A DNA stretch of 64,000 bases from Sediminicola luteus (lineage in GTDB: Bacteria > Bacteroidota > Bacteroidia > Flavobacteriales > Flavobacteriaceae), in assembly GCF_002514735.1 (NCBI RefSeq), contig NZ_NBWU01000004.1:248001-312000 (forward strand), in the 5' to 3' direction. The position numbers were made by a program, and so were the translations under genes. How positions within the stretch are numbered: position 1 is the first letter of the stretch; each line of letters opens with the position of its first letter. Under the pieces are notes generated by a model. That model did not search any database, was not told the origin of the DNA, and was given only the letters and a program-made list of their open reading frames with translations. Positions 32,225-35,752 of the stretch are shown here, one piece after another.

Positions 32225-32911
32225 ATGAGAAAAGAAAGACATCATAAAGGCTGGAACGAAATTAAGACCAACGATTCTTGGGCATTGTTCAAGATCATGG
32301 GCGAATTCGTAAACGGATTCGAGAAAATGAGTGCCATTGGCCCTTGTGTTTCGATATTTGGGTCGGCCAGAACCAAAGAACACCACGAATATTACCAATT
32401 GGCCGTTGACACCGCCGCCAAGATCGCAGAAGCAGGTTATGGGGTTATTACCGGAGGTGGTCCCGGAATCATGGAGGCTGGTAACCGTGGGGCCCATAAA
32501 GCTGGCGGTACTTCGGTAGGCTTAAATATCGATTTACCATTCGAGCAACACGACAATCCGTACATCGACTCTGATAAAAGCCTCGACTTCGATTATTTCT
32601 TTGTCCGTAAGGTTATGTTCGTAAAATATTCCCAAGGTTTTGTGGTTATGCCCGGCGGCTTTGGAACTTTGGACGAACTTTTTGAAGCCATAACCCTCAT
32701 ACAGACAAAAAAAATAGAGAGCTTCCCAATTATATTGGTAGGCACCGAATATTGGCAAGGTTTATTGGAATGGATCAAAACCACCATGTTGGGTAATGGC
32801 ACCATTAGCGCCAGTGATCTAGATTTATTGCATTTAGTAGATAGTGCGGAAGAAGTGGTAGATATTTTGGACGGATTCTATAGAGGTCATAATCTAAGCC
32901 CGAATTTTTAA
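32225..32911 (+). CDS. LOG-family / TIGR00730 Rossmann-fold nucleotide phosphoribohydrolase
   Basis: A 228-residue cytosolic protein with the two family signatures: GGGPGIMEAGNRGA (about 79-92) and PGGFGTLDELFE (about 140-151). Members cleave the ribose-5-phosphate from nucleoside monophosphates; plant-associated ones release cytokinins, and in most bacteria the role is nucleotide salvage. It starts 23 bp after uvrA and abuts the next gene, so it lies in the uvrA transcript. Older annotations call such proteins lysine decarboxylases, which the motif does not support. Confidence 0.88.
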   Translation: MRKERHHKGWNEIKTNDSWALFKIMGEFVNGFEKMSAIGPCVSIFGSARTKEHHEYYQLAVDTAAKIAEAGYGVITGGGPGIMEAGNRGAHKAGGTSVGLNIDLPFEQHDNPYIDSDKSLDFDYFFVRKVMFVKYSQGFVVMPGGFGTLDELFEAITLIQTKKIESFPIILVGTEYWQGLLEWIKTTMLGNGTISASDLDLLHLVDSAEEVVDILDGFYRGHNLSPNF

Positions 32912-35752
32912 TTGAAGCATTCGGGTTTTCTAAAATATCATGTTTTGCCCTTCGTGGTATTCCTGTTCGGATGGTGTGCCCATGCCCAATTCAAGAACAG
33001 GCTTACCGTACACTTAGATGAAAATTCGAATACCCTACATATTCAACAAGAATGGGAATATCCCAATATGGCCGACACCGTATTGGAAGAGTTGTATTTT
33101 TTGGATTGGGCCAACGCCTATTACGACAAAGATTCGGAATTGGCCAAACGCTTTGCCCAAGAGTTTAAGAAAAACCTGCATTTTACCAAAGAGGAAGATC
33201 GGGGGCGCACCGATATCATCAATATCTCCGACGCCCAGTTCCGTAACCTAAACTGGACACGGACCCCGGCCAGCGATATTTTACGCATTGATCTAAAAAC
33301 ACCCTTGGGCATTGGCCAAAGTACCAAATTCACCTTTACCTACGATGTAAAATTACCTGATAGCAAGTTTACCGATTTCGGCTATGGCATCAATCATTTC
33401 TTTTTAAAAGACTGGTATTTGGTACCCGCGACATTTAGAGATGGACAGTGGCTGTTAGATTCTAACAAAAACCTAGATGACCGTTTTAGCCCTTTAGCAG
33501 ATACCCATATCGAGTTCCACTACCCGGCTATTTATGAGTTAACCTCAAATTTTGACTCAAACCCGATCATTACTGAAAGCGCCACGCAAAACAAAGTGGA
33601 ATTGATTGGAAAAAATCGGGACGCTTGTGAAATACACCTTAGAAAAAGTAAGCGCTTTAAAGATTACCACAATCCGGGCATGGTAGTGGTTTCCGACATG
33701 AGCGCCCCCAGATTGGATGCGGTTAAACAAGACCTATCCATGATCAAGGTTATGAATTATGTAACTCGTAACTTAGGTCATTTTCCCCACGCTACCTTAT
33801 TGATCACCGAACGGGACTATGGCAAAAACCCCATTTACGGGTTAAGCCAACTCCCTTCCTTTATTCGACCTTATGACGAAGCCTTTATTTATGAGCTAAA
33901 GCTGTTAAAAACCAGCGTGGACAACTTTCTAAAGGAAAGCTTACACATAGATCGAAGAAGGGAAAAATGGGTGCATGATGCACTTCTCAATTATTTTATG
34001 ATCGATTATGTAAAACGACACTATCCGGATACTAAATTGATTGGCAAGCTGAGTAAGATGTGGGCAGTACGCCACACCTATTTGGCCAAAATGGGTTTTA
34101 ATGACCAATACCCACTGCTTTACATGCTTACGGTTCGCACCAATTTACATCAGCCGCTAACCACACCGAACGATTCTTTGGTCAAATTCAACCAACGGAT
34201 TTCCAACCCCTATAAGTCCGGTTTAGGGCTTACCTTATTAGAAGATTATTTAGGCAAGAAAGACTTCTCCTCCAACTTAAAGGGGTTTATCTCCGATAAT
34301 CAAGGAAAATCAGTAAGAACACAAGCATTTGAAGACAACTTACAAGCGTTTGCCGAGCAAGATATCTCTTGGTATTTTGAAGAATATGTAGAAAAAAGCA
34401 ACCTAATCGATTTTAAGATCAGGGAAATCGAAGTAAAGGGAGATTCTATGGAGGTCACCCTAAAAAACAAGACCGGGGTAAATTTGCCCGTTTCGGTATT
34501 TGGAGTACGTAACGATACCATTATCTCCAAGTTCTGGTACGACCCTAACCCCGATAAATTCAACAGCAAAAGTTTCCCTTATCAAGGCGAGGATAAGCTA
34601 ATCTTAAACTACGACAATAAATTACCCGAATTCAACCAACGGAACAACACCCACTCGGTAAAACCCAGCCTGTTTGGCGGAAAACCCATCCGTTTTCAGT
34701 TTTTTAAAGACATTGAAGACCCATACAAACATCAGATTTTCTATGTACCGGTACTCACCTTCAATGCCTACGATGGCATTACACCCGGTATTCGGTTTCA
34801 CAATAAATCGGTTTTAAGAAGACCTTTTGTTTACGATTTCACCCCTTCATATGCTATAAAGGAAAAGTCCCTAGTAGGGTCTGCAAAACTAAGTTATACG
34901 CATAATTTAAATAAAAGCGGGCACTATTATACTAGCTATACCATTGGTGGCTCTACTTTCCATTTCGAGGAAAACTCACGTTATAAAAGACTGGTTCCAC
35001 GAATTTCATTGGGGTGGCGACCCGAAGACCGCTTATCTAACAAACGAAAGTACCTCACGCTACGCTATGTTATGGTTCAAAGAGACCTTGCCGACGGTCT
35101 TGACATAGATACCGAACCAGATTATGGGGTTTTAAATGCCCGTTTTACCAATGTAGACAACCATATTCTCGATTATTTCTTATGGTCGGCAGACGCCCAA
35201 CATGCCGCCGATTTCAGTAAAATATCATTTACCACCGAATACCGTCATTTGTTCGAAAACAACCGACAATTGAATTTGCGTTTCTTTGCCGGTAAATTTT
35301 TAAGGAACAATTCGAGGGAGTCCGATTACTTTAGCTTTGCCCTAGATCGTCCCACCGATTATTTATTTGACTACAACTACTTGGGCCGTTCCGAAGATTC
35401 TGGTATTTTAAGCCAACAGATCATTATAGCTGAAGGAGGTTTCAAATCGCAGCTCGATACCCCCTTTGCCAACGATTGGATCGCCACGGTTAACGGTAGC
35501 GTTAGTATATGGCGTTGGATCGAGTTTTATTCCGATTTCGGTTTCGTAAAAAATTATGGACAAAAGGAAGAAATGGTATATGATTCAGGTATTCGATTGA
35601 ACTTGGTCACAGATTATTTCGAACTATACTTCCCCCTCTACTCGAACAATGGTTGGGAAGTTGGCCAAGATCGCTACGATCAAAAGATACGTTTTGTAAT
35701 AACCCTTAGCCCTAAAACCCTTCTTGGCCTGTTTAACAGGAAGTGGTTTTAA
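32912..35752 (+). CDS. M1-aminopeptidase-like pseudoenzyme fused to a predicted outer-membrane barrel
   Basis: A 946-residue exported protein that starts at a TTG directly after the preceding stop codon. It has a signal peptide (about 8-26, ending CAHAQ) and M1/gluzincin-like N-terminal beta-sandwich sequence (27-270). The catalytic-domain region at 270-440 lacks HExxH: the expected place reads FIYELK (325-330), and the second glutamate block reads WVHDALLNYF (353-362). The last 300 residues are strand-rich, with many aromatic-bounded segments ending NRKWF, as in outer-membrane barrels. Probably a non-catalytic or repurposed protein at the outer membrane. Confidence 0.72.
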   Translation: MKHSGFLKYHVLPFVVFLFGWCAHAQFKNRLTVHLDENSNTLHIQQEWEYPNMADTVLEELYFLDWANAYYDKDSELAKRFAQEFKKNLHFTKEEDRGRTDIINISDAQFRNLNWTRTPASDILRIDLKTPLGIGQSTKFTFTYDVKLPDSKFTDFGYGINHFFLKDWYLVPATFRDGQWLLDSNKNLDDRFSPLADTHIEFHYPAIYELTSNFDSNPIITESATQNKVELIGKNRDACEIHLRKSKRFKDYHNPGMVVVSDMSAPRLDAVKQDLSMIKVMNYVTRNLGHFPHATLLITERDYGKNPIYGLSQLPSFIRPYDEAFIYELKLLKTSVDNFLKESLHIDRRREKWVHDALLNYFMIDYVKRHYPDTKLIGKLSKMWAVRHTYLAKMGFNDQYPLLYMLTVRTNLHQPLTTPNDSLVKFNQRISNPYKSGLGLTLLEDYLGKKDFSSNLKGFISDNQGKSVRTQAFEDNLQAFAEQDISWYFEEYVEKSNLIDFKIREIEVKGDSMEVTLKNKTGVNLPVSVFGVRNDTIISKFWYDPNPDKFNSKSFPYQGEDKLILNYDNKLPEFNQRNNTHSVKPSLFGGKPIRFQFFKDIEDPYKHQIFYVPVLTFNAYDGITPGIRFHNKSVLRRPFVYDFTPSYAIKEKSLVGSAKLSYTHNLNKSGHYYTSYTIGGSTFHFEENSRYKRLVPRISLGWRPEDRLSNKRKYLTLRYVMVQRDLADGLDIDTEPDYGVLNARFTNVDNHILDYFLWSADAQHAADFSKISFTTEYRHLFENNRQLNLRFFAGKFLRNNSRESDYFSFALDRPTDYLFDYNYLGRSEDSGILSQQIIIAEGGFKSQLDTPFANDWIATVNGSVSIWRWIEFYSDFGFVKNYGQKEEMVYDSGIRLNLVTDYFELYFPLYSNNGWEVGQDRYDQKIRFVITLSPKTLLGLFNRKWF

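Follow-up and report, generated by a model that had tools for sequence, protein, structure and literature searches.

What does a bacterium keep when it keeps a peptidase fold that has lost its zinc site and is joined to an outer-membrane barrel? The question is raised by one gene in the 64,000-nucleotide stretch of Sediminicola luteus DNA analyzed here (the window; contig NZ_NBWU01000004.1, positions 248,001 to 312,000). An earlier reading made from the letters alone (the sequence-only reading) had described its product as an M1-peptidase-like domain without HExxH, fused to what looked like a barrel, which would be a new type of surface binding module. Our analysis supports the fold, the loss, and the barrel, traces the loss to a single event, and probably places the domain on the other side of the membrane. 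The account that we lean toward, with confidence a little above even, is that of an M1 pseudopeptidase on an Omp85-like barrel, with a periplasmic non-catalytic binding domain, acting as an accessory factor of outer-membrane biogenesis or homeostasis.

The full chain was modeled with AlphaFold2 (AF2) from an alignment of 60 close orthologs, with a predicted local distance difference test score (pLDDT) of 83.5 and a predicted template modeling score (pTM) of 0.83, and the model contains both of the elements anticipated by the sequence-only reading, the M1-like fold and the barrel. All 50 rows shown by Foldseek for the M1-like part are M1 aminopeptidases (best E value, 4.5e-18), and VIA aligned 467 residues with M1 aminopeptidases at a Z score of 21.6 and a root mean square deviation of 3.3. 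The sole Pfam match of the protein is Peptidase_M1 (PF01433; residues 374 to 492), with 19.9 bits against a cut-off of 27.7, and the same family is matched at an E value of ≤0.1 in 41 of 50 orthologs, 5 of the 50 having an intact site. A search of the Protein Data Bank (PDB) with profile A1, which includes five intact rows, matched M1 enzymes at 1.6e-13, while NCBIfam and PHROGs gave no match for the 946-residue protein. The computed model confidently assigns it an M1-aminopeptidase fold. No POTRA domain was seen in the AF2 model, in which residues 499 to 606 contain no helix of at least 4 residues.

Alignment with intact relatives places K333, T334, D337, and D356 of the window protein at the H, E, and H of HExxH and at the second E. 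The sequence-only reading was right that HExxH is gone and that the second glutamate block is changed, but it had located the replacement at FIYELK, which lies just before the true position. In the intact relatives, the Glu of GxMEN, the residues H, E, H, and E, and the Tyr are all kept (29 of 29); the names GxMEN and catalytic Tyr for aligned positions 313 and 433 are those of M1 biochemistry, the alignment itself being computed. Among 58 full-length rows lacking the site (site-less rows), position 333, that of the first zinc His, is never His and is Lys in 49, position 433 is never Tyr (Lys in 34 rows, Pro in 6), and the Glu at position 313 is lost in 56 (Gln in 35, Glu in 2). The alignment that gives the zinc positions of the window protein left out L179, L181, L183, L188, and duplicate loci. 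The sequence-only reading had named orthologs with an intact HExxH elsewhere in the chain as refuting it, and none was seen: no intact zinc site stands elsewhere in the chain in any of 148 site-less rows, the window protein included and some genomes being present in two collections; the only HExxH string among them is at residue 86 of L127, with 1.25 expected by shuffling. The loss of HExxH is real and not due to chance, and the computation shows that the other catalytic residues are lost as well.

The old active site looks partly fixed anew. Eleven positions of the chain are conserved in both groups and yet differ between them, and four of these lie at the old active site, where Y309, N312, L314, and K333 are each fixed in 85% or more of the 47 site-less rows compared; in the window protein, position 312 is Ser and not Asn. 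Lys or Arg at 333 together with an acid at 356 is found in 45 of the 58 site-less rows and the pair is missing in 12, as if a salt bridge had been put in place of the zinc. At one locus, L048, the charges of this pair are swapped, with Glu at 333 and Lys at 356.

The site was lost once. In a tree computed with the motif columns omitted, the site-less rows (58 of 87) form one side of one branch, with a value of 99 in the Shimodaira-Hasegawa-like approximate likelihood ratio test (SH-aLRT), and in a second tree, again without the motif columns but under a mixture model and rooted on the rows of family f24 as outgroup, they do the same (21 of 38 rows; SH-aLRT, 99). Both trees are quick searches with SH-aLRT support and no bootstrap. 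The larger one left out 4 of 91 rows, namely, L002, L004, L171 (<890 residues), and L187; the smaller one was hand-picked, dropping 49 of the 87 rows and keeping the deep branches except for L054 (a long branch) and the most distant intact rows, namely, the group C proteins described below, L172, L173, and L175. In the f24-rooted tree, the sister of the site-less rows is the intact L046. It too lies next to the E1-type dehydrogenase gene found downstream of the M1-barrel gene in the window and is therefore a positional ortholog with an intact site.

After the loss the gene was retained almost everywhere in the family as sampled. A near full-length ortholog is present in 45 of 47 genomes of the family to which the host belongs (genome code f1, which we take to be the Flavobacteriaceae), four genomes of 1.6 to 1.9 Mb among them; of the two exceptions, G016 has none and G023 shows a weak match to a frame of 623 residues. 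The site is absent in all 46 family members read, the host genome included (34 + 12), and in a further 78 full-length named loci, some from the same genomes (for example, L009 and L061); the named loci come from the best 80 of 559 confirmed stretches, less 2 partial ones that were not used. Across 79 relatives, 69 have a match, some of these only to other M1 proteins, mostly of about 600 to 650 residues. Within the order, intact rows occur in families f4, f6, f11, and f14 (5 of 50), and the seven remaining family codes represented have none. HEVGHNWFYG...WMDE, or a motif close to it, is found in relatives from the class and beyond, and several of these have a barrel matched by the profile of the window protein. 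We read this history as a single, ancient loss of the site in an active aminopeptidase anchored in the membrane, followed by retention of the gene. The claim of a new type has to be narrowed: further families from the same class and phylum have proteins of this layout with an intact catalytic site.

Some of these relatives deserve mention in their own right. The proteins at L159-L164, L190, L191, L046, and L050-L053, of 927 to 1038 residues and from several families of the class, combine an intact HExGHNW...DE with a related C-terminal barrel and, judged from their sequences, are probably aminopeptidases anchored in the outer membrane. A further set (L172-L178, L180, L182, and L184-L186) comprises M1 proteins of 994 to 1074 residues. 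For nine of them, group C, whose profile does not contain L172, L173, and L175, the C-terminal ~430 residues do not match the barrel of the window protein (0.2%), and we therefore make no claim of one barrel family throughout the phylum. L179 (genome G162), a frame of 1055 residues with its M1 part in the second half (residues 440 to 1022), has a different architecture. The ortholog of G041 (L309), one of the 45 in the family, has an in-frame TGA and a longest open piece of 835 residues, possibly a pseudogene or an assembly error.

The barrel of the full-length model has 16 strands, against 15 when the barrel was modeled alone (pLDDT, 74.7; pTM, 0.72). Of 95 Foldseek rows obtained with the barrel-only model at an E value of ≤0.001, the best 50 all belong to the Omp85 superfamily (TamA, BamA, SAM complex, and CdiB; best, 3.5e-7), chains of SAM complexes being counted as Sam50, and the 41 best VIA rows are likewise Omp85, with a SAM complex at the top (Z score, 16.6). 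Profile comparison with hhalign links the site-less barrels to those of four f24 M1-barrel proteins (95.0%; 4.1e-8; 304 columns), which in turn match the barrels of a Bacteroidota BamA set (94.2%; 1.1e-7; 126 columns). As negative controls, TonB-receptor and FadL barrels reached 0.2% and 0.1% with the f24 barrels and at most 6.1% probability in any local alignment. A wider barrel set, bar2, which contains the f24 rows and leaves out 16 of 91 rows (L002, L004, and distant L17x/L18x rows), matched BamA at 0.00028. The last residue of the chain is aromatic in the window protein and in 48 of 50 orthologs, as the sequence-only reading had indicated for its C-terminal barrel; past the final strand, the AF2 model ends the chain with a helix of low confidence.

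The connection between strands 11 and 12 has a length of 56 residues and stands in the place of loop L6 of the Omp85 proteins. In those proteins, the Arg of VRG(F/Y) in L6 pairs with the strand-13 acid of (F/Y)x(D/E)xG. In 66 of 75 rows, Arg826 is accompanied by an acid at 875 (Asp in 62 and Glu in 4), with a median spacing of 49 and a range of 47 to 66, and of the 29 Bacteroidota rows of the BamA set, 22 contain both an (L)RG(Y) and an FxEAG-type pattern, 38 to 52 apart; the L6 motif VRGF/Y of BamA is described in PMC12611786. Among the stretches compared, conservation is highest in the loop that holds R826, at 3.10 bits, followed by strands 12 to 16 at 2.83; strands 1 to 11 have 2.32, and the M1-like part has 2.06 to 2.36 (former catalytic domain, 2.31). 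By the model, this is a 16-strand barrel with a long 11-12 connection whose nearest solved folds are Omp85, and computation supports its Omp85 kinship, which by profile reaches BamA only through intermediate relatives.

Several observations weigh against this picture and have to be set beside it. The TonB receptor Fiu reaches a VIA Z score of 14.1, tied with several BamA rows. Compared directly, the site-less barrels match BamA weakly (20% over 34 columns), which hardly discriminates because the TonB control stands at 6.1% in local and 6.9% in global alignment; the global alignment of site-less barrels to BamA failed (P 0.86). Pfam Omp85 was not listed at an E value of ≤10 for any of 60 close barrels and appears in only 2 of the 29 intact relatives, below threshold in both (best, 0.029, at residues 857 to 1020 of L177). 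The canonical VRG(F/Y) is absent, the Arg alone seemingly being kept as GR(S/N) (GRS in the window protein), 9 of the 75 rows do not have the Arg/acid pair, and residues 811 to 850, R826 among them, were modeled at a pLDDT of 33 to 49, leaving the R826-D875 contact outside the confident part of the model. For the M1-like part, a PDB profile search with the site-less sequences alone matched no chain, so that M1 kinship rests on the fold, the weak Pfam match, and the intact relatives. Catalytic letters also survive by lineage in the site-less rows (His337 in 8 of 58, Glu356 in 8, and Glu334 in 2), and the gene neighborhood, while supporting orthology, gives no functional hint from the adjoining genes. 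Separately, kinship with DUF5686 was considered and is not claimed, with 1 of 60 barrels matching at 0.0043 and the site-less barrels giving 24.9% over 173 columns; DUF5686 proteins (L221-L250) show a weak likeness to the wide barrel set (44.5% over 61 columns).

In outer-membrane barrels, long loops face outward. In the strand list of the model, the connections after even strands, on the side of the N terminus, have 8, 4, 7, 3, 5, 2, and 3 residues, and those after odd strands have 3, 4, 2, 12, 2, 56, 6, and 15; the three long ones (12, 56, and 15 residues) all lie opposite the N terminus, and the M1 domain precedes strand 1. This arrangement would place the M1-like domain in the periplasm, where it probably sits at the inner side of the outer membrane. 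The same was shown for the N-terminal domain of PlpD, once thought to be exported (PMC11116518).

We propose that the protein would be exported by Sec and inserted in the outer membrane, its C-terminal third forming the Omp85-like barrel, with about 16 strands. The N-terminal two thirds would keep the M1 fold without zinc binding or catalysis and would face the periplasm, where BamA and TamA carry their POTRA domains. The former cleft, fixed anew at 309, 312, 314, and 333 and mostly with an acid at 356, may be a surface that, without catalysis, binds or docks a polypeptide or partner in the periplasm. The protein could then serve the Flavobacteriales as an accessory factor of outer-membrane biogenesis or homeostasis and not as a peptidase or surface receptor, a role that we infer and that lies in the usual field of Omp85 proteins. 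A more specific version, which we regard as tentative and distinctly less probable, is that these proteins form an unrecognized M1-Omp85 subfamily with a peptidase domain in the POTRA position, in which, in the Flavobacteriales, a single loss of the site turned the cleft into a client-binding groove and a membrane-anchored aminopeptidase into a lineage-specific factor of outer-membrane assembly or translocation.

The strongest competitor, which we nevertheless consider unlikely, is a homeostasis protein in the manner of PlpD, with a barrel that destabilizes or senses the inner leaflet and a domain that either provides a dock for a partner enzyme or sequesters the ends of lipoproteins or peptides, without a part in protein insertion. 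The layout is that of PlpD, whose N-terminal domain is an enzyme and is followed by an Omp85 barrel, and the authors of PMC11116518, who found the PlpD domain to be periplasmic, link PlpD to lipid homeostasis; the fold here is M1, however, and not patatin, and PlpD has a POTRA domain where our model has none. The surface-exposed binding module of the sequence-only reading has on its side a signal peptide and the many surface proteins that Bacteroidota display, but the position of the domain before strand 1 and the loop lengths of the model point to the periplasm, the lipobox cysteine of Bacteroidota surface lipoproteins is found in 0 of 50 orthologs by a simple pattern, and the analogous claim for PlpD has been overturned (PMC11116518); we consider this reading improbable.

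Even less credit is due to an enzyme with some other chemistry carried out by the newly fixed cleft residues (N312, K333, and the acid at 356). The four re-fixed cleft positions would suit such an enzyme, as would the K/R333-acid pair, in one case with charges exchanged; that pair is more simply seen as a salt bridge replacing zinc and is missing from a fifth of the site-less rows, the window protein has Ser at 312, and no catalytic motif was recognized in it. The least probable of all, in our judgment, is that the M1-like part is decaying without function and that the barrel alone matters. The L6-like loop and strands 12 to 16 are indeed more conserved than the M1-like part, although strands 1 to 11 are not, and the ratio of nonsynonymous to synonymous substitutions (dN/dS) is 0.103 in the M1-like part and 0.034 in the barrel for the sole pair, of six tried, where both could be computed, dS for the M1-like part being saturated in all the others. 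A ratio near 0.1 still suggests constraint (one pair; dS, 1.458), and both the full length kept in 45 of 47 genomes and the clade-specific conservation in the cleft speak against decay.

How, then, does an M1 pseudopeptidase on an Omp85-like barrel compare with known systems? Over residues 25 to ~600, the protein has the fold of M1 aminopeptidases such as ERAP1, IRAP, puromycin-sensitive aminopeptidase, and Escherichia coli PepN, but unlike these it lacks the zinc site, the GxMEN Glu, and the catalytic Tyr and continues into a barrel. In TAF2 of TFIID, the aminopeptidase-homology domain is not known to have activity. TAF2 carries this domain in a transcription complex, with the M1 fold reused for binding (PMC6220335), and it differs in being nuclear and in having no membrane barrel; neither TAF2 nor "M1 family" occurs in the available text of a pseudopeptidase review (PMC11266112). 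The PL-Omp85 proteins PlpD and FplA (PMC11116518) share an N-terminal enzyme-fold domain, shown to be periplasmic in PlpD and probably so here, on an Omp85-type barrel, but theirs is a catalytically active patatin with one POTRA domain and a demonstrated homodimer, where the protein described here has an M1 fold and no POTRA domain in the model. The Omp85 superfamily is defined by its barrel, a POTRA domain being usual and not obligatory (PMC4104836), and of the 10 subfamilies of Heinz and Lithgow, "Metallo" and "noNterm" are barrels without POTRA domains, one of them with a metal-enzyme domain; this domain is called a metalloprotease and given as PF00149, not M1, no M1 domain is named in the available description, and no word of the text of PMC4104836 begins with "peptidase."

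BamA, TamA, and the BAM complex of Flavobacterium johnsoniae (PMC12611786) share with the protein an Omp85-like barrel in the outer membrane. In the Bacteroidota, outer-membrane biogenesis draws on extra subunits, recently found and unknown elsewhere (PMC12611786), so that a conserved Omp85-like protein suggests itself as a candidate for this pathway. Identity with one of the described subunits was rejected: BamG is of FadL type, BamH, BamM, and BamP have other described folds, and in the available text, compared by description, no subunit is given as an M1-barrel and "peptidase" does not occur. In the literature that we searched, which left most subscription papers and bioRxiv preprints outside, no M1-Omp85 fusion was described. 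Enzyme-like domains on Omp85 barrels and pseudoenzymes are both already known, and it is their combination here and its history that are new to us. With this finding, M1 would join the few non-POTRA domains listed on Omp85-like barrels. The finding also places a conversion of enzyme to non-enzyme on a tree with intact relatives extant for comparison, and it makes testable an envelope protein that nearly all sampled members of its bacterial family keep; the intact relatives, for their part, would be aminopeptidases attached to the outer membrane at its inner side.

Features of the M1-barrel gene and its product (window coordinates)
Feature	Residues	Position	Strand	Basis
Gene of site-less M1/Omp85-like barrel protein, 946 residues		32912..35752	+	Open reading frame list; TTG start abuts stop codon of upstream gene
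Type I signal peptide, predicted (...AHA^Q26)	1-25	32912..32986	+	Read from sequence; Q-rule
M1-like domain I (boundary approximate)	27-261	32990..33694	+	AF2 model; VIA alignment from residue 25
M1-like former catalytic domain	262-498	33695..34405	+	Pfam PF01433 on 374-492; AF2, Foldseek, VIA
Former GxMEN strand (YGLSQLP); exopeptidase Glu now Q313	309-315	33836..33856	+	Alignment
FIYELK, just before true HExxH position	325-330	33884..33901	+	Sequence, alignment
Former HExxH (KTSVD)	333-337	33908..33922	+	Alignment with intact relatives
Third zinc ligand (Glu) position, here Asp	356	33977..33979	+	Alignment with intact relatives
Presumed catalytic Tyr position, here Pro	433	34208..34210	+	Alignment
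All-beta domain between M1-like part and barrel	499-580	34406..34651	+	DSSP of model
Omp85-like beta-barrel, 16 strands in full-length model	607-932	34730..35707	+	AF2, Foldseek, VIA, profile comparison
Strand 11-12 connection, presumed place of Omp85 loop L6, with R826	800-855	35309..35476	+	Model, conservation
Asp of (Y/F)xDxG (YxDxG here) on strand 13, 49 residues past R826	875	35534..35536	+	Alignment

The signal peptide agrees with the Q-rule described for type I signal peptides of Bacteroidetes (PMC10653852), and Gln is found at position 26, the first residue after cleavage, in 49 of 50 orthologs. The host genome has 4.56 Mb, and the nearest named relatives among the best 80 of the 559 stretches are Flavobacteriaceae (Eudoraea, Maribacter, Zobellia, and others). 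By NCBIfam, the upstream neighbors are UvrA and a TIGR00730-family protein, and the downstream neighbor is E1-type dehydrogenase-like, with a score that falls short of all the curated cut-offs shown. At most of 100 loci of relatives, the M1-barrel gene is accompanied by UvrA and the TIGR00730 gene; the TIGR00730 gene adjoins it in 81 and the E1-type gene in 83, with contig ends cutting some loci. The stop codon of the TIGR00730-family gene directly abuts the TTG start of the M1-barrel gene (TAATTG, window positions 32909 to 32914), which suggests that the two genes are translationally coupled.

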